Source: Clostridiaceae bacterium (GTDB lineage: Bacteria; Bacillota; Clostridia; Tissierellales; Sporanaerobacteraceae). From it: DNA of 64,000 bases. The stretch is from NCBI GenBank assembly GCA_019391515.1, contig JAHXQP010000013.1, forward strand, positions 1-64,000, written 5' to 3'. The notes beneath the pieces are model-generated. The model ran no database searches and was not told the origin of the DNA. It saw only the letters and a list, made by a program, of their open reading frames with translations. The position numbers were made by a program, and so were the translations under genes. Position 1 is the first letter of the stretch, and every line of letters begins with the position of its first letter. This document shows, one piece after another, positions 3,250 through 46,995 of this stretch.

Positions 3250-3360
3250 TAATTTATTTTTCATTAATTAAAGAATAGTAAATATATATAAAAACAGTTC
3301 AAGTGGCTTTATTACTAAGTTATGATTATTAAAATATTCTCTAATCTGTTTTAAGATAAT

Positions 3361-3376
3361 TGGCATAATTGTTGCA
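3361..3376 (+). promoter_or_regulatory. Sigma-54 (-24/-12) promoter
   Basis: TGGCATAATTGTTGCA matches the sigma-54 consensus TGGCAC-N5-TTGCA with GG (3362) and GC (3374) exactly 12 bases apart. It lies about 145 bases upstream of the symporter gene and downstream of a sigma-54 activator gene, which makes it the likely promoter of the two-gene transport and peptidase operon. Confidence 0.85.
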
Positions 3377-4945: not shown

Positions 4946-6580
4946 ATGAATGAAAGAATAGAAAAGCTTACATTGGAGTTAACAAGCATAAGAGGGGTTG
5001 TGGGAACAAAAGAAGAGAACAATGTAGCTGACAAGGTATATGAAAAATTTATGGAAATGGATTATTTTAAAAAACATCCAGAGTATGTCGACTATGTAGA
5101 TGTAATAGATGATCCTCTTGGAAGAAAAAGTGTAATGGCAATGGTTAAAGGAGAAAAAGGTAATAGTAATAAAACAGTTATCTTAATTGGTCATATAGAC
5201 ACTGTAGGAATATCTGACTATGGCGATTTAAAAGAATATGCTACTAAACCATTGGAATTAGTAGAGAAATTTAAAGGAAGACCTCTTCCAGAAGATGTAA
5301 TTAAAGATTTAGAATCTGGAGAGTATCTATTTGGCAGAGGTATATTCGATATGAAATGTGGAGTATCTACCCTTATGACTTTAGTAGAGGAAATCTCCAA
5401 CAATGTAGAAAACTTTGAAGGAAATATAGTATTTGCAGGAGTATGTGATGAAGAAGGCAACTCTGGTGGTATGCTTTCAGTAGTTCCTAAGCTAGTTAAA
5501 TTAAAAGATAAAGAAAACCTTGAATATTTAGCAGTGCTTGATACAGACTATAGTGCTCCAAGATATGAAGGGGACAATACTAGATATGTATATGTAGGTA
5601 CTGTAGGAAAGTTAATGCCTACATTCTATGTAGTTGGAGCAGAGACCCATGCAGGGGATCCTTTCAAGGGAATAGACTCTAACCTAATATCTTCAGCTAT
5701 AACCAATGAAATAGATTTAAATACTAAATACTGTGACGAAGCAGAAGGAGAAGTTACTGTACCTCCTATTACTTTGAGACAACAAGATCTAAAGCCAGAA
5801 TATTCTGTTCAAACAGCAAAGACTAGCCATCTTTATTTTAACTATGGTACCCATGTAAGTACTCCAGACGAAGTTATGGCAAAGGTAATTGAAGGAGCAG
5901 ATTTAGCTTTCCAAAAGGTAATTGACAGTTTAAATGTAGAATATAAAAAATACTGTGATTCAAATAAATTCCCTTATGAAAAACTACCTTGGAAATCAAG
6001 GGTTATGTCCTATGATGAATTGTATAAGAAGGTAAAGGAAGAAAGAGGGGAAGAAGTAGATAAGTTAATAGAAGATTTAAATAAAGAACTAATTGATGAT
6101 CCTAATGTAGATGATAGAGAATTTGCACTAAAAATAGTAGAAGGTGTTCACAATATGTGGTCGGATAAAGATCCTGTAGTTGTAGTATTCTTCTCACCAC
6201 CATATTATCCACATATATATGTAGAAGGTAAATCTAAACTAGAAGAAAAACTTTTAAATACAGTAAAGGAAACTGTTGAAAATACAGATTCTAAATACGA
6301 TATCAAAGTTAAGAAATTCTATCCTTATATTTCTGATTTAAGCTATGCAGCAGCTCCAAGAGAAGAAGAGGCTATTGAATCCTTGAAAAACAATATGCCT
6401 GGATTTGGAGTGAAATATAAATTACCTATTGAAGATTTACAAGAACTAAATCTTCCTGTACTAAACATAGGGCCTTTTGGCAAAGACGCTCATAAATTTA
6501 CAGAGAGATTGGAAAAAGACTATTCATTCAATGTTGCGCCAAAAATTGTTTACAATACTATTATAAATCTATTGAAATAG
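4946..6580 (+). CDS. M20-family metallopeptidase, RocB-like
   Basis: A 544-residue zinc-type M20 hydrolase resembling RocB, a protein of arginine catabolic operons whose exact reaction is not established. Metal-binding elements are visible in order: GHIDTVG (His-x-Asp), IFDMKCG (Asp), CDEEGNSGG (Glu pair), LDTDY (Asp) and a terminal KDAHKFTE (His). The start was set at 4946: the AGGAGG at 4933-4938 is only one base from the in-frame ATG at 4940 and seven bases from this one. It follows the symporter gene and ends before a clear terminator, so the two form one sigma-54-driven unit. Amidohydrolase or dipeptidase activity is inferred. Confidence 0.85.
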   Translation: MNERIEKLTLELTSIRGVVGTKEENNVADKVYEKFMEMDYFKKHPEYVDYVDVIDDPLGRKSVMAMVKGEKGNSNKTVILIGHIDTVGISDYGDLKEYATKPLELVEKFKGRPLPEDVIKDLESGEYLFGRGIFDMKCGVSTLMTLVEEISNNVENFEGNIVFAGVCDEEGNSGGMLSVVPKLVKLKDKENLEYLAVLDTDYSAPRYEGDNTRYVYVGTVGKLMPTFYVVGAETHAGDPFKGIDSNLISSAITNEIDLNTKYCDEAEGEVTVPPITLRQQDLKPEYSVQTAKTSHLYFNYGTHVSTPDEVMAKVIEGADLAFQKVIDSLNVEYKKYCDSNKFPYEKLPWKSRVMSYDELYKKVKEERGEEVDKLIEDLNKELIDDPNVDDREFALKIVEGVHNMWSDKDPVVVVFFSPPYYPHIYVEGKSKLEEKLLNTVKETVENTDSKYDIKVKKFYPYISDLSYAAAPREEEAIESLKNNMPGFGVKYKLPIEDLQELNLPVLNIGPFGKDAHKFTERLEKDYSFNVAPKIVYNTIINLLK

Positions 6581-6602
6581 GATATAGCGTCAGGTTAATA
6601 AC

Positions 6603-38358: not shown

Positions 38359-41076
38359 ATGAGTAGAATCAAGGAAGTATTAGATACATTGGAAAGATTA
38401 AGAGAAGAAAATCCTGAGGGGATTTCTGCCATAGATGTTGCTCAAATACTAGACATAGATAGATCCAATATAAGTAGATATTTAAATATTTTATATAGAG
38501 ATGGGAAGGTTGAAAAACTAGAAGGCAGACCTGTATTGTATAGAACTATAGATATAGAAAAAGATACTTTTAAAGAGAGAAATACTCCTATTAGTAAGAA
38601 TAAAAATAGCTTAGATAAAATGGTTGGTGCAAATCAAAGTTTAGCTATTTCCATTGACAAGGCTAAAGCGGCTATAATGTATCCGCCAAAAGGACTTCAT
38701 ACATTGATATTAGGAGAAACAGGAGTAGGCAAGTCTATGTTTGCTGAGCTGATGTATCAATTTTCCATAGAAACCAATATTCTTGGGAAAGATGCTCCTT
38801 TTATAAGGTTTAATTGTGCAGATTATGCTAGCAACCAAAATCTTTTAACAGCTCAGATATTTGGAGTAAAAAAAGGTGCTTATACTGGTGCTACAAAAGA
38901 TAGGGAAGGGTTGCTTAAAAAGGCAGATGGAGGATTTATATTTTTAGATGAAATCCACAGGTTATCTCCTCAGGGGCAGGAAATGTTATTTACATACATA
39001 GATAATGGATTCTTCAGACCATTAGGAGAAACGGAAAATTTGTCTTATGTAGATGTGAGGATCATTGCTGCAACTACAGAAGATCCAAAATCCAATTTAT
39101 TAAAAACTTTCACTCGTCGAATACCCATGGTAATTACATTGCCTCCAATTAGAGATAGAGGTTTATCTGAAAGATATGATTTTATAGAGACTTTTATTAA
39201 AGAGGAATCTCATCGCCTAGGAAAAAGTATTTATATAAATAAAAATGCTATTATTTCTTATTTATTATATGATTGTCCCAATAATATAGGGCAACTTAAA
39301 TCTGACATTCAATTAGCTTGTGCTAAAGCTTTTTTAAATTACAAATCCCAAAACAACAATTATATATTAATAACCCAATGTGATTTACCTAATCATGTTA
39401 AAAAGGGAATTATGAATATTAATCAATATAGAAATGAAGTAGAGCAGCTATTGAATTTTAATTATGATATATTAAAATTCAATCAGAGTGAAAAACCACC
39501 TTTATTGATGGAAATAGATAAATATACTACAGAGGATTTTTATAATAGTATTGAAGAGAAATTGAAGTCCTTAAAGAATATGGGGATATCTGAACAAGAT
39601 ATAAATGAAATAATAAATATAGATATAGAGACTCATTTTAAGGAATACATAGGCAGTATATCTAGACATTTCCATAAGGAAGAAATATCTAATATAGTAG
39701 ATAATAAAATTTTAGAAGTAGTGGAAGAAATACTTCTGTTAGGAGAGAAAAAATTAAATAAACATTTTAGTGAAAAGGTTTATTTTGCTTTATCTTTTCA
39801 TCTAGAAAGAAGTATAAATAGAATAAAAAATGGAGAAAAAATCTATAATCCAAAATTAAATTTTATTAGAATAAACTATGAAGAAGAATTTTTATTTGCA
39901 ATGAAAATAACAAGAATCATAGATGAAAGATTTGGAATTGAAACTCCAGTAGATGAAATAGGTTATTTAGCTATGTTTTTTGCAACCGATTCTTATAAGT
40001 TTGATAAGGTAGAAGTACCTAAGGTAGGAATTCTTGTTATTATGCACGGTAAAACTACGGCTAGTTCCATGGTGGAAGTAGCCAATAGCCTAATAGGGAC
40101 TGATCATGCTATAGCCCTAGACATGCCCTTAAATATGAAACCAGAGACTATGTATTCCATAGCTAAAAGAAAGGTGGAGGAAATAAATAAGGGGGAAGGT
40201 GTGATTATTTTAGTAGATATGGGTTCTTTGACTACTTTTGGAGATATGATTTGGGAAGAAACTGGCATAGAAGTAAGAACTATTGAAATGGTCAGCACTT
40301 CTATGGTTTTGGAGGTTTTAAGAAAATCAATAGTAGGATATAGCATAGATGAAATAATGGAAGCCTTTAAAAATAAACATGTATATAAGTATAGAAGTAA
40401 TGTATTAGAAGAAGGCAATAATATAAAGGATATTATTGTTACTGCTTGTTTTACTGGAGACGGTGCTTCAAAAAAGATTGCAAATATTATTGGAAAAGAA
40501 ATATCTAATAAAAATATAGATATATTTACCATAAATATAATAGATGAAAATAACTTAGAAAATAGATTGTATAAGTTAAAAGATAAATATAATATATTAG
40601 CAATAATATCTACTATATCATTAGATATATCTTGGGCACCAGTATTTCTTGCTGTAGATATATTTACAAATGAAGGAATAGATAAATTGAATAATGTTTT
40701 TGAAGAAAATGAAATGTGTCTAAAAATCTCACAATCTTTAACAGAACATTTACCAAATATAAAGGATAAGAAAATTGTAAAAGAAATTAGATATATTTTA
40801 TATGAAGTAGAATACAAATTAGGATTAAAAGTATCCATAGATGTAAGGATGGGAATCATGCTCCATATATGTTTTTTAATAGATAATTTGATAAAAGGGG
40901 TTATACCACGGAAATTTAATGATTTGGAAGAATACAAGAAAACATATAAGAAGGAAATGAAGATTTTGAGAGAAATATTTTCTCCTATAGAAAATAAATA
41001 TGAAATTGTTATAGGAGAAAATGAGATAGGGTATATATTAAAAACATTTTTATCAAACCAAATTAGTGTGTATTAG
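38359..41076 (+). CDS. LevR-type sigma-54 activator with PTS regulation domains
   Basis: A 905-residue activator. Domains in order: N-terminal winged helix-turn-helix (1-65), sigma-54 AAA+ domain (about 85-340) with Walker A GETGVGKS (119-126), GAYTGA loop (173-178) and Walker B GGFIFLDE (191-198), PRD1 (about 430-540), a mannose-type EIIA-like domain (about 560-690, VIMHGKTTAS with the candidate phospho-His), an EIIB-like region (about 705-790) and PRD2 (about 800-905). Activity is expected to be set by PTS phosphorylation through HPr and the cognate IIB. The target is the sigma-54 promoter at 41201 right behind its own terminator. ATG follows AAGGATGGGG. Confidence 0.9.
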   Translation: MSRIKEVLDTLERLREENPEGISAIDVAQILDIDRSNISRYLNILYRDGKVEKLEGRPVLYRTIDIEKDTFKERNTPISKNKNSLDKMVGANQSLAISIDKAKAAIMYPPKGLHTLILGETGVGKSMFAELMYQFSIETNILGKDAPFIRFNCADYASNQNLLTAQIFGVKKGAYTGATKDREGLLKKADGGFIFLDEIHRLSPQGQEMLFTYIDNGFFRPLGETENLSYVDVRIIAATTEDPKSNLLKTFTRRIPMVITLPPIRDRGLSERYDFIETFIKEESHRLGKSIYINKNAIISYLLYDCPNNIGQLKSDIQLACAKAFLNYKSQNNNYILITQCDLPNHVKKGIMNINQYRNEVEQLLNFNYDILKFNQSEKPPLLMEIDKYTTEDFYNSIEEKLKSLKNMGISEQDINEIINIDIETHFKEYIGSISRHFHKEEISNIVDNKILEVVEEILLLGEKKLNKHFSEKVYFALSFHLERSINRIKNGEKIYNPKLNFIRINYEEEFLFAMKITRIIDERFGIETPVDEIGYLAMFFATDSYKFDKVEVPKVGILVIMHGKTTASSMVEVANSLIGTDHAIALDMPLNMKPETMYSIAKRKVEEINKGEGVIILVDMGSLTTFGDMIWEETGIEVRTIEMVSTSMVLEVLRKSIVGYSIDEIMEAFKNKHVYKYRSNVLEEGNNIKDIIVTACFTGDGASKKIANIIGKEISNKNIDIFTINIIDENNLENRLYKLKDKYNILAIISTISLDISWAPVFLAVDIFTNEGIDKLNNVFEENEMCLKISQSLTEHLPNIKDKKIVKEIRYILYEVEYKLGLKVSIDVRMGIMLHICFLIDNLIKGVIPRKFNDLEEYKKTYKKEMKILREIFSPIENKYEIVIGENEIGYILKTFLSNQISVY

Positions 41077-41107
41077 TGTGTAGATATCTGCACACTAATT
41101 TATTTTT
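41072..41107 (+). terminator. Terminator of the LevR-type gene, overlapping its stop codon
   Basis: ATTAGTGTG (41072-41080) pairs with CACACTAAT (41091-41099), inner AGAT/ATCT pairing, followed by TTATTTTTTT. The stop TAG (41074-41076) is inside the stem. Confidence 0.7.
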
Positions 41108-41113
41108 TTACAC

Positions 41114-41137
41114 ACTAAATTTGAAATGTAATTTAGT
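41114..41137 (+). promoter_or_regulatory. Candidate upstream activating sequence for the LevR-type activator
   Basis: Perfect inverted repeat ACTAAATT (41114-41121) / AATTTAGT (41130-41137) with an eight-base spacer, centred about 90 bases upstream of the -12 element. Enhancer sites of LevR-like activators usually lie around 100 bases upstream, so the distance fits. Confidence 0.5.
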
Positions 41138-41200
41138 TCTCAAACCCATGAGATATCATAATATAAACTATTTTATTTTATTTTTGAACATACAAGTATT

Positions 41201-41216
41201 TGGCAAGGTAATTGCA
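41201..41216 (+). promoter_or_regulatory. Sigma-54 (-24/-12) promoter of the PTS/glycosyltransferase operon
   Basis: TGGCAAGGTAATTGCA fits the consensus with GG (41202) and GC (41214) 12 bases apart. It lies 84 bases before the IIB gene and directly downstream of a sigma-54 activator gene. Confidence 0.87.
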
Positions 41217-41299
41217 ATTATAATATATAGTACCAGGGGATATAGGAGGTAATGTGGGGTAGAGAAACATAAAACATTATATGGAAAGGAATGATAGTT

Positions 41300-41611
41300 A
41301 TGTTAAACATTATGTTGGTCTGTTCAGCAGGAATGTCTACTAGTCTATTGGTCAATAAAATGAATAAAGTAGTAAAAGAAAAAGAGCTAGATGTAAATAT
41401 AGTAGCTGTAGCAGAAGCAGATGTAAAAAGTAATATGGATAAGGTAGATGTCATGTTGTTAGGTCCACAAGTCAGATACTTATTACCAAATATGAAGGGG
41501 TTAATGGAACCAAAAGGGGTACCAGTAGAAGTGGTAGATACTGTAGATTATGGAACTATGAATGGGGAGAAGGTTTTGGAATATGCTTTAAGCTTGGCTA
41601 AAGAACTATAA
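41300..41611 (+). CDS. PTS lactose/cellobiose-type EIIB
   Basis: A 103-residue IIB protein that carries phosphate on Cys8 (MLVCSAGMSTSLL). ATG 41300 is preferred: GGAAAGGA at 41282-41289 is nine to ten bases away, while the in-frame ATG at 41291 abuts it. Later residues include DVMLLGPQVRYLLPNM, usual in cellobiose-type IIB. First gene behind the sigma-54 promoter; IIC follows 23 bases downstream, while the matching IIA is encoded three genes later. Confidence 0.9.
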   Translation: MLNIMLVCSAGMSTSLLVNKMNKVVKEKELDVNIVAVAEADVKSNMDKVDVMLLGPQVRYLLPNMKGLMEPKGVPVEVVDTVDYGTMNGEKVLEYALSLAKEL

Positions 41612-41634
41612 AAATACTAGTAAGGGGGATTAGT

Positions 41635-42903
41635 ATGAAAAAGTTTATGGATTTTATGGAGAAAAAGTTTGTTCCAGTGGCAGCAAAGATTGGAGGACAG
41701 AGACATTTAGTTGCAATCCGTGATGGATTTGCAAGTATTATGCCTTTAATACTTGCAGGTTCTATGTCAGTTTTATTAAAAAACACTATATTTGAATGGA
41801 TTACTCCATTAAATGGATTAATTCCTATATGTGATCAAGTATGGTGGGGTTCATTAGCAATAATGACTTTATTAATTGTATTTTCTGTGGGATATAACTT
41901 AGCTAAATTTTATGAAGTAGATCCATTAGCAGCAGGACTTATTGCTGTTGGATCCTACTTTGCTACATTACCTCAATCTCATGGAGAGGCTGGTTGGGGA
42001 TATATTCACTGGGGTTATTTACAAGCTACAGGATTGTTTACAGGATTAATAGTAGCATTAATTGCTACGGAAATATTCGTGAAACTAATAAAGAAAGATT
42101 TAACAATTAAAATGCCAGAAGAAGTTCCTCCCGCAGTAGGAAAGGCTTTTGCAGCTGTTATACCAGGTACAATTACTATTCTTATTTTCGGTATTTTATT
42201 TCTCGTAATAGACAATTTGGGAGGGGTAAGTCTATATGATGTAATAGAAAATTCTATACAAAAGCCATTACAGAATTTAAGCCAAGGGGTTGGATCTGCA
42301 ATTTTAGCAGCTGTGTTGATTAATCTATTTTGGTTCTTTGGATTACATGGTGCTAATATATTGGATCCTGTAATGAATGCATTATATTTGCCTGCTCTTA
42401 CTGCTAATGAACAAGCTATTGCAGCAGGATTAGAGGCACCAAATATAATAACTAGAGCTTTCTTTGATACTTACGTTCATCTAGGTGGGGCTGGAGCAAC
42501 TTTAGCTTTAATAATAGCTATATTTATTGCCTCTAAAAACAGAAAAGAATATAGAGAAGTAGCTAAATTATCTGCACCAGCAGGAATATTCCAAATTAAT
42601 GAACCTGTGATGTTTGGAATTCCTATAGTCCTTAATCCAATATTATTTATTCCATTTTTAATTACGCCTGCAATACTGACTTTAATAGCGTATATAGGGA
42701 CGGCAACTGGTTTTGCACCTCCTACTTATTTAGTTGTTCCTTGGACTACACCTCCTATTATAGGAGCATTTCTAGCAACAGGAGCTACATCAGCAAGTTG
42801 GAGAGCAGCTGTATTGGCAGCTATAAATTTAGTAGTAGCAGTATTGATATATTTACCATTTGTTAAATTAGCTGATAGACAGAGACAAAAACAAACTGAA
42901 TAG
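41635..42903 (+). CDS. PTS lactose/cellobiose-type EIIC permease
   Basis: A 422-residue membrane permease with about ten helices and the family signature FQINEPVMFGIPIVLNP, plus FWFFGLHGANILDPVM. It takes up a beta-linked disaccharide or related sugar while the IIB encoded upstream phosphorylates it. The exact substrate cannot be read. The MupG-family hydrolase in the same operon suggests an amino-sugar disaccharide such as a MurNAc-containing or GlcNAc-containing one; that is inference. Confidence 0.88.
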   Translation: MKKFMDFMEKKFVPVAAKIGGQRHLVAIRDGFASIMPLILAGSMSVLLKNTIFEWITPLNGLIPICDQVWWGSLAIMTLLIVFSVGYNLAKFYEVDPLAAGLIAVGSYFATLPQSHGEAGWGYIHWGYLQATGLFTGLIVALIATEIFVKLIKKDLTIKMPEEVPPAVGKAFAAVIPGTITILIFGILFLVIDNLGGVSLYDVIENSIQKPLQNLSQGVGSAILAAVLINLFWFFGLHGANILDPVMNALYLPALTANEQAIAAGLEAPNIITRAFFDTYVHLGGAGATLALIIAIFIASKNRKEYREVAKLSAPAGIFQINEPVMFGIPIVLNPILFIPFLITPAILTLIAYIGTATGFAPPTYLVVPWTTPPIIGAFLATGATSASWRAAVLAAINLVVAVLIYLPFVKLADRQRQKQTE

Positions 42904-42948
42904 AGTGAATAACATTTTCTAATACTAAAGGGATTTAGAAACATCTAT

Positions 42949-43009
42949 GTAAGAAGTAGAGAAGAAATAGAGGAAACAGGTATTAATTAGAGTTATCTCT
43001 ACTTCTTAC
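42949..43009 (+). repeat. Intercistronic inverted repeat between IIC and glycosyltransferase genes
   Basis: GTAAGAAGTAGAGA (42949-42962) pairs perfectly with TCTCTACTTCTTAC (42996-43009), 14 bp, loop 33 bases. No T tract follows. It may limit readthrough into, or separate by processing, the glycosyltransferase part of the operon. Confidence 0.6.
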
Positions 43010-43072
43010 TAATGTTTTATATAAAAATATATCTGACTATTTATATCCCTCATATTAAGAGGAGATGATAAA

Positions 43073-45088
43073 GTGGCTTATTATATTGGTCTTACATTTG
43101 TTATTCTTCTTATTTTAATAAGTTTAGATGATTTTATATGGGATGTATATTATTTTTTTAGTCCAAAAAGAAAAAAGAACAATACTAATGCTATATCTTA
43201 TAAAGATCTAACAGATACAGTTCCCGGTTTACTTGCTATTATAGTACCAGCCTATCGTGAAGAGGATGTATTAGAAGATGTTATAGAAAATTTAATAGAT
43301 ACAAACCATTATCCCAATGCAATGTATCATATTTTTCTGGGGGTATATCCAAACGATCCTGATACCTTAGATATAGCAGATAATTTATCTAAAAATCATA
43401 AAAATGTTCATAGAGTTATTCACATAATAGATGGACCTAGTTCTAAAGCTGATAATATAAATAATGTAATAAAAAATATTTTAGAATATGAAAACAAAAA
43501 AGGTATTAGATTTAAGGGTATTATAGTACACGACTCAGAAGATGTAATTCATCCTTATGAAATATTAGTTGAAAATTATCTTTTGAATTTTCATAAGGCC
43601 ATCCAAATGCCTGTATTTCCACTACAAAGAATGCCTAGAATAGGAAATATTTTTAAAAATATGATATCTGGAACATATGCAGATGAGTTTGCAGAAAATC
43701 ATTATAGTATGCTTGTGGCTAGAAATGTTACTAAATCTTTTGTGCCTTCAGCAGGAACAGGTTTTGTGATTTCTAGGGATATAATAGATTGCTTCCCTGA
43801 TTTCAATATATTCCCAGTAGGGAGTTTAACAGAAGATTATAAACTTTCATTATTGCTTAAACAAAAGGGATTTCATCTTTATTATGCATTAGAAGAGGTA
43901 GAAAGACTTAAAGGAGATGGAAAAATGGAAAGAGAATTTATAGCTACCAGAAGTATATTTCCATCAACTTATAGTGCTGCTGTAAGACAAAAATCTAGGT
44001 GGATATATGGGATAACTATGCAGTCTTTTAAACTTAGAGATATATTAAAAAATAAAAATTTATCATTTGGTTCTAAACATAGTTTATATAAAGACTGGAA
44101 AGCGAAATTTAGCAATATATTACTTGTACCAAGTTATTTAATTTTTATATATTTTATATTTTCTTTGTTTTTAAATATTCCAATAATTTATCCTAAGTTT
44201 AGTTTATCATGGTATCTCATGTTATTTGTAACTATTATGATGATAGAAAGACAAATTTTAAGGGGAAGAGCTGTAAAAAACGTATATGGATATAAAAGTA
44301 CCTTTATAAGTGTATTGTTTCCACCTATATTGCCTTTTAGGATGGTTATTGGGAATATAATAAATTTTCATGCAACCTTAAAGGCTTGGAAGATGAATCT
44401 TTTTAAATCTAGTGCTAAAAAAAGAAAGAAAAAGCCTAGTTGGAATAAAACTGATCATGAATTTTTAGAAAAAGAAGTCTTAAATACTTTTAGAAGAAAA
44501 TTAGGGGATGTTCTTCTATGTAAAAACCTAATATCACCAAATGAATTAAAAAAATCTCTTGAAAAATCAAAAACTAATGGAATGAGGCTTGGAGAAACTT
44601 TAATAACGGAAGGCATAGTATCGGAAGAGGATATAGTTATCTCTTTATGTAAAATAAATAAAGAGATCTATTTTGAAATTAAACCTAATATGGTTTCAAA
44701 AGAGGGCATAGATTTTTTTGGAAAAGATTTTCTATTGCAAAATTTTATGGCACCTATTATGAAAACAAGAAATACGGCAGTATTTGCTATTTCAAATCCT
44801 GATGATAAAGAAAGAATAATAAATTTATTAAAGGATAAAAAAATTGAAAAAGAGGTTATTCAGTTTATCTATTCTACAAAAGAGAATATAACAAATTCTT
44901 TAGAAAAAATGGATAAAGAATATTTAGATGAAATAAAAATTATAGAAAAATTAATAGAAGAAGATATTTTGTTTTTAGAAGAAGGGCTTATAGCTTTGGG
45001 ATATCAGAATACAGAAAAAAATATTAATGAAATACTATATGATATGGGATTTGAAGAACAAGGAAATAAGGGTCTTATATTTAATTGA
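43073..45088 (+). CDS. NfrB-like processive GT2 glycosyltransferase with C-terminal MshEN domain
   Basis: A 671-residue membrane enzyme starting at GTG 43073 after AGAGGAGATGAT. One N-terminal helix (about 4-22) is followed by a family 2 glycosyltransferase domain (50-315) with IIVPAYREED, DSED (154-157), TED (253-255) and QKSRW (306-310), the QxxRW mark of processive synthases. Two to four membrane segments lie at about 345-435, then a basic linker and an MshEN/GspE-N domain (about 475-600) with KLGDVLL..LI and RLGETLITEGIV repeats, which resemble the c-di-GMP-binding motif. This is the layout of NfrB, which builds a c-di-GMP-controlled surface glycan in E. coli. Its place inside a PTS operon is unusual. 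Confidence 0.8.
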   Translation: MAYYIGLTFVILLILISLDDFIWDVYYFFSPKRKKNNTNAISYKDLTDTVPGLLAIIVPAYREEDVLEDVIENLIDTNHYPNAMYHIFLGVYPNDPDTLDIADNLSKNHKNVHRVIHIIDGPSSKADNINNVIKNILEYENKKGIRFKGIIVHDSEDVIHPYEILVENYLLNFHKAIQMPVFPLQRMPRIGNIFKNMISGTYADEFAENHYSMLVARNVTKSFVPSAGTGFVISRDIIDCFPDFNIFPVGSLTEDYKLSLLLKQKGFHLYYALEEVERLKGDGKMEREFIATRSIFPSTYSAAVRQKSRWIYGITMQSFKLRDILKNKNLSFGSKHSLYKDWKAKFSNILLVPSYLIFIYFIFSLFLNIPIIYPKFSLSWYLMLFVTIMMIERQILRGRAVKNVYGYKSTFISVLFPPILPFRMVIGNIINFHATLKAWKMNLFKSSAKKRKKKPSWNKTDHEFLEKEVLNTFRRKLGDVLLCKNLISPNELKKSLEKSKTNGMRLGETLITEGIVSEEDIVISLCKINKEIYFEIKPNMVSKEGIDFFGKDFLLQNFMAPIMKTRNTAVFAISNPDDKERIINLLKDKKIEKEVIQFIYSTKENITNSLEKMDKEYLDEIKIIEKLIEEDILFLEEGLIALGYQNTEKNINEILYDMGFEEQGNKGLIFN

Positions 45089-45142
45089 TATGAAAATATA
45101 TTTTAGGATAAAAACATCTAAATTATTAAAGGAGAGAGTGAT

Positions 45143-45472
45143 ATGGATTTAGAGATGATAATAATCAATATTATAAATTATAGTGGTGAGGCTAGGAGCT
45201 TAAGTATGGAAGCTATGCAATATGGAAAAAAAGGAGATTTTGAGAAAGCAAGACATAACTTAAATGAGGCCAATAAAAATATTTCTAAGTCCCATAAAAG
45301 TCAAACGGAATTGATTCAATCAGAGGCTAGAGGAGATAAACAAGAAGTATCTTTATTACTTATTCATGCTCAAGATCACTTAATGAATGCTATAACTATT
45401 AGGGATATGGCTAAAGAATTTATTGACTTATATGAAATGATCTCAGAGGAAAAAGGTGATATAAATGCGTAA
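45143..45472 (+). CDS. PTS lactose/cellobiose-type EIIA
   Basis: A 109-residue all-helical IIA protein with NYSGEARSLSMEA and LLLIHAQDHLMNA; the phospho-acceptor His is 75. It should serve the IIB and IIC encoded at 41300 and 41635, although the glycosyltransferase gene lies between them. Its stop overlaps the MupG-family gene by eight bases. Related to but clearly distinct from the LacF at 34628. Confidence 0.88.
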   Translation: MDLEMIIINIINYSGEARSLSMEAMQYGKKGDFEKARHNLNEANKNISKSHKSQTELIQSEARGDKQEVSLLLIHAQDHLMNAITIRDMAKEFIDLYEMISEEKGDINA

Positions 45473-46547
45473 ATTAGGAGTATCAATTTATCCAGATAGG
45501 TCATCTTTAGAAGAGAACAAAAAATACTTGGATTTGGCATCAAAGTATAACTTTACTAGAGTTTTTACAAATTTATTATCTGTTGATATGAATGAAAGCC
45601 ATTCTTTTAATGATTTTAAGAAGATTGTAAAATATGCATCTAATTTAGGTATGGAAGTAATAGCTGACGTTTCCCCTGCAGTATTTAAAACTTTAGATAT
45701 TCACTATACTGAATTAAAGTTTTTTAAAGATATAGGTCTATCCGGTATTAGGCTGGATTTGGGGTTTAGTGGAAAAGAGGAAAGTGTTATGAGTTTTAAT
45801 CCTTATAATTTGAAAATAGAAGTAAATATGAGCAGTGGAACTAAATATATAGAAAACATAATGAGTTATATTCCAAATAAGGATAATATTATAGGATGTC
45901 ATAATTTTTATCCGCATAAATATACTGGATTGTCTAGAAAACATTTCATGGAAACCTCTAATATTTTCAAAAAACATGGTCTAAGAACTGCTGCTTTTGT
46001 TTCGTCTTCTAATGGAAACTTTGGACCTTGGTCTGTAAACGAAGGTTTACCAACATTAGAAGATCATAGAATGCTTCCTATTGAAGTTCAAGCTAAGGAC
46101 TTGTTCAATACTGGTCTTATAGACGATGTAATTGTTTCTAATTGTTATGCTTCTGAAGAGGAATTAAAATCCCTTAAAGAAATAGATAAGGATATTTTAA
46201 CCTTAAAAGTCAAACTAATAGATGGATTACCAAAAATGGAAAGAAAGATTGTATTAGAAGAACCACATTTCAGTAGAGGTGATGTTTCGGAATATATGAT
46301 AAGGTCAACTGAAAGTAGGGTGAAATATAAAGACTATGATTTTCAACTAATAAATTCTAAAGATATAAAAAAAGGAGATATATTAATTGATAGTAGTTTA
46401 TATACTCATTATTCAGGAGAATTGCAAATAGCATTAAAATCTATGAAAAATAGTGGTAGAACTAGCGTAGTGGGTAAGATTGTAGATGAAGAAATGTATC
46501 TGTTAGATTATATTAAACCTTGGCAAAAATTTAAGTTTTCTTTGTGA
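45465..46547 (+). CDS. MupG-family (DUF871) 6-phospho-glycosidase
   Basis: A 360-residue protein: TIM-barrel part (1-235) with LGVSIYPDRSSLEENKKYL, VIADVSPAVF and GCHNFYPHKYTGLS, and a C-terminal cyclophilin-like part (about 240-355). The family includes S. aureus MupG, a 6-phospho-N-acetylmuramidase that splits MurNAc-6-phosphate-GlcNAc inside the cell. Coupled to a PTS IIA gene by an eight-base overlap, so it probably hydrolyses the phosphorylated disaccharide imported by this PTS. Whether the sugar is MurNAc-GlcNAc or another amino-sugar dimer is unknown. Confidence 0.82.
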   Translation: MRKLGVSIYPDRSSLEENKKYLDLASKYNFTRVFTNLLSVDMNESHSFNDFKKIVKYASNLGMEVIADVSPAVFKTLDIHYTELKFFKDIGLSGIRLDLGFSGKEESVMSFNPYNLKIEVNMSSGTKYIENIMSYIPNKDNIIGCHNFYPHKYTGLSRKHFMETSNIFKKHGLRTAAFVSSSNGNFGPWSVNEGLPTLEDHRMLPIEVQAKDLFNTGLIDDVIVSNCYASEEELKSLKEIDKDILTLKVKLIDGLPKMERKIVLEEPHFSRGDVSEYMIRSTESRVKYKDYDFQLINSKDIKKGDILIDSSLYTHYSGELQIALKSMKNSGRTSVVGKIVDEEMYLLDYIKPWQKFKFSL

Positions 46548-46714: not shown

Positions 46715-46739
46715 ATTTACAACAATTAAATAGTATAAC

Positions 46740-46839
46740 TTATCCAGAATTAGGGTAGAGAATTAGCTCGTTGACCCTATACCAACCTGTTATATTTTTA
46801 ATAAGGTGGTTCTGCTAATGTCGATAAGATGGATGATAA
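46740..46839 (+). ncRNA. Unrecognised structured leader RNA (possible riboswitch)
   Basis: A compact set of complementary segments: P1 ATCCA (46742-46746) with TGGAT (46830-46834); P2 TAGGGT (46751-46756) with ACCCTA (46774-46779); P3 ACCA/CCT (46781-46788) with AGG/TGGT (46804-46810), one bulged A; and a pseudoknot between the P2 loop, ATTAGC (46762-46767), and GCTAAT (46814-46819). It ends just before a strong terminator. This is the look of a ligand-sensing aptamer with an expression platform. I do not recognise it as SAM, cobalamin, T-box, TPP, FMN, THF, glycine or ZTP class. Confidence 0.55.
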
Positions 46840-46890: not shown

Positions 46891-46995
46891 ATCTTATCAA
46901 GAGAGGTGGAGGGACTGGCCCTATGAAGCCCGGCAACAGCCAGTTTATACTGGAAATGTGCCAATTCCTGCAGCCATTGGCTGAAAGATAAGAAG
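46891..46995 (+). promoter_or_regulatory. SAM-I riboswitch (S-box)
   Basis: Core conserved sequence runs from CTTATCAAGAGAGGTGGAGG through GGCCCTATGAAGCCCGGCAA, then GTGCCAATTCCTGC and CTGAAAGATAAG. P1 is CTTATC (46893-46898) with GATAAG (46987-46992). ATAAGAAG (46988-46995) is complementary to CTTCTTAT (47020-47027) and would form the antiterminator when SAM is absent. Confidence 0.95.

Follow-up and report, generated by a model that had tools for sequence, protein, structure and literature searches.

Within a 64,000-nucleotide stretch of a Clostridiaceae bacterium genome (positions 1 to 64,000 of contig JAHXQP010000013.1, assembly GCA_019391515.1; hereafter the window), an operon of the sugar phosphotransferase system (PTS) contains nfrB, a gene for an NfrB-like polysaccharide synthase. 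The explanation that we prefer, and to which we give an even chance, is that this is a LevR/DagR-type sigma-54 operon for a disaccharide of the cellobiose/chitobiose class, in which the slot of a GH4 glycosidase is taken by the synthase, so that sugar induces the uptake genes and the synthase gene together. This explanation is carried by the observed gene content, a conserved promoter and gene order, the identity of the slot, intact synthase motifs and purifying selection on nfrB.

On the forward strand, the operon encodes the PTS components IIB (41291-41611; Pfam PF02302 PTS_IIB, 2e-20; TIGR00853 above its cut-off) and IIC (41635-42903; PF02378 PTS_EIIC, 3e-55; TIGR00410 above its cut-off), the NfrB-like processive glycosyltransferase (43073-45088; GTG start, 671 residues), component IIA (45143-45472; PF02255 PTS_IIA, 1e-37) and a 6-phospho-glycosidase of the MupG/GH170 family (45465-46547; PF19200 MupG_N, 6e-97; PF05913, 1e-38; PDB 1x7f, 1.5e-118), the last two genes overlapping by 8 bases. 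According to Pfam and NCBIfam, all three components of a lactose (lac)/cellobiose-family PTS are present, and the open reading frames (ORFs) reproduce the gene order of an original prediction made on this DNA. The synthase gene is a member of the operon rather than a mere neighbour, as that prediction had held, and the same order is found in a second species. This closest relative is Anaerosalibacter sp. ND1 (locus L002, genome G002; hereafter the sister species), whose synthase is 89% identical, and the two genomes are referred to as the Anaerosalibacter-type pair. By the classification used in the searches, the window genome is taken to belong to the genus of the sister species. In G001, the third genome of this genus, nfrB is missing, as is any close relative of the window MupG.

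In three related loci (L069 of genome G058, L070 of G051 and L072 of G052), a GH4 glycosidase lies between IIC and IIA (PF02056, 1e-65 for L070; the activator and IIB of L072 fall beyond the stretch examined). Operons without nfrB that consist of the activator, IIB, IIC, IIA and MupG were found in L071 and L073, and in L074 a small HPr-like gene is added to this set. A palindrome 3' of IIC (GTAAGAAGTAGAGA...TCTCTACTTCTTAC; 42949-43009, + strand), with 14-base arms, lies in the 169-base gap between IIC and nfrB. Among the loci compared, it is specific to this operon, being present in both Anaerosalibacter-type genomes and, before GH4, in L070, with which 42 of 47 bases are identical (E 5e-15). 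The stretch 5' of IIA (AAATTATTAAAGGAGAGAGTGATATG) is also closely matched in L069 and L070. Because the palindrome after IIC is common to L070 and the region before IIA is alike in L069 and L070, we assign nfrB to the GH4 slot. GH4 was either swapped directly for nfrB or lost earlier; no GH4 remnant was detected in the window operon, and a search of the rest of the window genome, run without a positive control, found no GH4 relative. In L070, a second, long A+T-rich hairpin lies between IIC and GH4 (6480-6600; stretch z-score -10).

A sigma-54 (-24/-12) promoter (TTGGCAaggtaaTTGCA; 41200-41216, + strand) stands 5' of IIB with GG-N10-GC spacing (TTGGCAAGGTAATTGCA) and is one of two perfect consensus matches within the window. 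The promoter is kept at this place in six genomes, namely the window genome, the sister species, G058, G051, G030 and G042, and this conservation together with the perfect consensus confirms the promoter that had been predicted. Upstream lies a gene that the prediction had not named (38359-41076, + strand), which encodes a sigma-54 activator of the LevR/DagR type with an AAA+ domain, PRD domains and an EIIA-Man domain (Pfam Sigma54_activat 2.8e-41, PRD 2e-33, EIIA-man 5.7e-15). Its GAYTGA loop is visible in the sequence, and its score against the NCBIfam DagR model is 509 bits, under the cut-off of 1400. Considering that a relative of this gene precedes the same operon in G002, G058, G051, G030, G042 and G031, the activator is probably the regulator of the operon. 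About 80-140 bases 5' of the promoter, repeats of TAGTGTGTA / T(A,G)CACACTA and the complement, in two direct and two inverted copies (41064-41117, no strand assigned), are candidate activator-binding sites; the inner pair doubles as a terminator-like hairpin of the activator gene (41072-41099), and similar repeats are present in relatives. As to a separate promoter for the synthase, which the original prediction had named as a finding that would speak against it, consensus matches occurred only at or below chance: no sigma-70-type promoter stands out 5' of the gene, and the region as a whole gave 28 matches against a shuffle mean of 36. The second perfect sigma-54 match (3360-3376, + strand) lies ahead of a transporter-like gene, and an ORF upstream of it (365-1720) is related to sigma-54 activators.

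The motifs of the synthase align with those of E. coli NfrB (HDSED 153-157, LTED 252-255 and QKSRW 306-310) and are accompanied by transmembrane helices and a C-terminal MshEN domain. The predicted NfrB-like GT2 enzyme with MshEN was upheld by these intact motifs, a Pfam match to Glyco_tranf_2_3 (9e-41) and an NCBIfam c-di-GMP (cyclic di-GMP) motif model. Against NF008411, the equivalog model of E. coli NfrB, the synthase scored 327.5 bits and did not reach the curated cut-off of 1170, and we class it as an NfrB homologue, not an equivalog. The AlphaFold model, built from 14 sequences with a mean predicted local distance difference test score of 82 and a predicted template modelling score of 0.85, resembles bacterial cellulose synthase (BcsA), hyaluronan synthase, and MshE with c-di-GMP (5htl, TMt 0.73). 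Between the window genome and the sister species, the ratio of nonsynonymous to synonymous substitution rates (dN/dS) of nfrB was 0.20 (0.14 in the glycosyltransferase part and 0.28 in the MshEN part), and those of IIC and MupG were 0.15 and 0.10, respectively; nfrB is under purifying selection. The dS of IIA was 0.07, compared with 0.22-0.25 in its neighbours, which is possibly the result of recombination or of chance in a short gene.

The MshEN domain was weak in Pfam (17.8 bits against a cut-off of 23.1) and above the cut-off in the NCBIfam model NF053729 (50.3 bits against 38). The 53-residue motif keeps 17 of its 22 conserved positions, whereas shuffled tails kept 7 on average and 11 at most. 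Both RLG glycines (G478 and G507) are present, and glycine loss is the most damaging change in E. coli NfrB and, for the first glycine, in MshE (PMC8669472, PMC5013675). E. coli NfrB, which binds c-di-GMP at 1 uM (PMC8669469, PMC8669472), has about 18 of the 22 positions when counted by hand with a four-residue spacer from the alignment, and itself lacks the Arg and Gln of motif 1. Judging from its motif, c-di-GMP binding by the window MshEN domain is plausible. In the window genome, c-di-GMP input would be possible, if small, with one GGDEF protein bearing PAS domains, no EAL protein found and three HD_5 matches that are at most HD-GYP candidates.

The window genome has three full-length MupG paralogues. 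One of them, at G000:C4, is 38% identical to the window MupG and adjoins murQ, with a MurP-like EIIBC and an RpiR-type regulator also there by sequence reading, and this operon corresponds to the one that S. aureus uses for recycling (PMC6262408). The window operon has no murQ. The earlier reading of MupG stands in so far as Pfam places the protein in the 6-phospho-glycosidase family, but it needs refining in that the murQ-linked MupG is a different paralogue. In L. paracasei, genetic data show that a GH170 enzyme with a cellobiose-class PTS serves diacetylchitobiose (PMC12791066). Because of this precedent and the separate murQ-linked operon, a chitobiose-like substrate is favoured, by analogy, as the more likely one for the window MupG.

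The number of genomes with an nfrB-like gene was 5 among 249 in the order, 4 among 391 in a class sample and 8 among 398 in a phylum sample, the window genome being counted each time. We compared 34 nfrB loci, mostly from Gram-positive-type phyla, some with flanks of just 1.5 kb or ended by a contig edge. In seven of them (L009, L012, L016, L020, L021, L093 and L094), wecB lies next to or near nfrB. This link is known mainly from Proteobacteria, and UDP-N-acetylmannosamine (UDP-ManNAc) has been proposed as the substrate of E. coli NfrB (PMC8669469, PMC8669472). Judging from gene neighbourhoods, the link extends outside Proteobacteria, and it is the main reason why UDP-ManNAc is proposed here; a WecB-type epimerase is encoded in the window genome. 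Except for L002, no intact lac-type PTS or mupG adjoined nfrB in the flanks available for the 34 loci. The neighbourhood search that had been suggested with the original prediction therefore found the order kept in a second species but no conserved module elsewhere. A PTS-nfrB module conserved in Firmicutes was rejected, as the arrangement is seen only in the two Anaerosalibacter-type genomes and the lac-type IIC fragment of L096 (9-541; G638), on the strand opposite a nearby nfrB-like gene, is decayed. In the synthase tree, the Anaerosalibacter-type pair groups with L003, L004 and L114 (support 100/99), all in unrelated contexts. L114, which is on a 5 kb contig with transposase-like genes next to it, and L003 have near-identical nfrB genes in genomes assigned to different families, which reflects either recent transfer or a mis-binned contig. 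Short nfrB fragments in L030 (G011), with 75% identity over 32 residues, YHKAIQMPVFP nearby in frame and stops between, are read as what is left of a decayed nfrB, here in a different family within the order. Most likely, the operon stands for sugar-induced co-expression of a ManNAc-type glycan synthase that was acquired in the genus of the Anaerosalibacter-type pair.

In the preferred explanation, disaccharide import would lead the PRD/EIIA-type activator to induce the synthase along with uptake and MupG/GH170 cleavage. The amino sugar released in this way would probably be converted to UDP-N-acetylglucosamine and by WecB to UDP-ManNAc, and the synthase would polymerise and export a ManNAc-type glycan, with c-di-GMP as a probable second, allosteric control. 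The inducer, substrate, polymer and c-di-GMP control are those that we infer. The most specific form of this scheme, a dedicated circuit of an anaerobic Bacillota genus in which a single sigma-54 operon responds to the import of an amino-sugar disaccharide from outside by inducing its breakdown as well as a c-di-GMP-gated ManNAc-polymer synthase, and a nutrient is thus turned directly into a surface coat, is tentative and in our view rather doubtful. Of the two models put forward originally, the second, in which sugar sensing triggers glycan synthesis, is the best fit to the regulation.

Several observations weigh against co-expression under sugar and c-di-GMP control. Only two genomes carry the nfrB arrangement, too few for more than a weak test of whether selection favours co-expression. 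In the sister species, the activator gene (L082:11368-14081) is present as two ORFs with a break near residue 464, which may be a real break or an assembly error. The 169-base gap with its palindrome could lower read-through into nfrB, and processing or attenuation is possible there. In the MshEN domain, the motif ends have Ser and Ile in place of the two c-di-GMP-contacting glutamines, and Lys stands for the first Arg of motif 1, where the sister species has Asn. In addition, the GGDEF protein of the genome reads GGDEL.

A serious rival, which we consider possible though on the unlikely side, is opportunistic insertion, in which a horizontally acquired nfrB entered an expressed operon and displaced a dispensable GH4, and co-regulation with the PTS has no meaning beyond expression. 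The patchy occurrence of nfrB in the order, class and phylum samples, in contexts that vary everywhere, would be expected in that case, as would the transposase-like genes (by sequence reading) that adjoin the copy of G078 (L114) and the decayed remnants in G011. However, two species that differ by about 0.25 synonymous changes per site have both retained the order, nfrB is under purifying selection, and the gene fills the GH4 place with the operon left intact.

Two other rivals concern the sugar. The operon could recycle the peptidoglycan disaccharide of N-acetylmuramic acid and N-acetylglucosamine (MurNAc-GlcNAc) and add a cell-wall glycan synthase, given that S. aureus MupG has MurNAc-GlcNAc recycling activity (PMC6262408) and that, in G054 and G046, MupG relatives with 57-60% identity have murQ-like and anmK-like genes as neighbours (named by sequence reading; murQ of G054 by search). 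We consider this improbable: a separate operon of the murQ-murP-mupG-murR type is present at G000:C4, the IIC of murQ-linked lac-type operons is just about 33% identical, and relatives carry GH4 in this operon. The first of the original models, a closed loop in which the PTS retakes amino-sugar disaccharide fragments of the surface polymer for cleavage by MupG, agrees with the gene order, and both halves plausibly handle hexosamine sugars. However, it is not supported by gene distribution and is in our judgement very improbable, since PTS-mupG operons occur without nfrB in many relatives, nfrB occurs elsewhere without a PTS or mupG, and the operon has no depolymerase gene. As each is found without the other, the PTS-mupG operon and nfrB have not evolved together as a single system.

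LevR/DagR-regulated sigma-54 PTS operons are a feature of Firmicutes, and the window operon shares their activator domains, adjacent sigma-54 promoter and PTS structural genes, but it includes a polysaccharide synthase gene. It resembles the L. paracasei chb genes (PMC12791066) in combining a cellobiose-class PTS with a GH170 phospho-glycosidase, and the E. coli chb operon for diacetylchitobiose in its PTS class, there with a GH4 phospho-glycosidase; in contrast with both, its regulator is of the sigma-54 LevR/DagR type and the synthase occupies the GH4 slot. The S. aureus mupG-murQ-murP-murR genes (PMC6262408) likewise join a PTS with a MupG-family hydrolase, whereas the window operon has a lac-type PTS and no murQ. 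With NfrB of the E. coli NfrBA-YbcH N4 glycan receptor system (PMC8669469, PMC8669472), the synthase shares the GT2 motifs HD(S/A)ED, TED and QKSRW, transmembrane helices, MshEN and wecB-linked relatives. Unlike that system, the window operon lacks NfrA and YbcH, and the synthase has 671 rather than 745 residues, lies in a sigma-54 PTS operon, has lost the MshEN glutamines and scores under the NfrB equivalog cut-off.

A paper search aimed at the pairing of a PTS operon and a polysaccharide synthase under c-di-GMP gave no paper that combined all the terms used. Genes for synthases controlled by c-di-GMP usually cluster with those for export or signalling; in the window, a putative one occupies a catabolic slot of a PTS operon that is probably induced by its substrate. 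If the preferred explanation is true, a surface glycan would be tied to nutrient sensing through transcription, with c-di-GMP possibly acting on the enzyme. An NfrB-like enzyme is found here amid little c-di-GMP machinery (one GGDEF protein and no EAL), and non-Proteobacteria cases are added to the wecB-nfrB link. The significance is moderate, as this is a clean gene-slot change in one genus and among known families.

The operon ends at 46547, and no Rfam element was found inside it. The next unit opens with two tandem S-adenosylmethionine riboswitches (46737-46830, 46.5 bits, and 46891-46994, 94.6 bits), ahead of a sulfhydrylase-like/methionine gene cluster.

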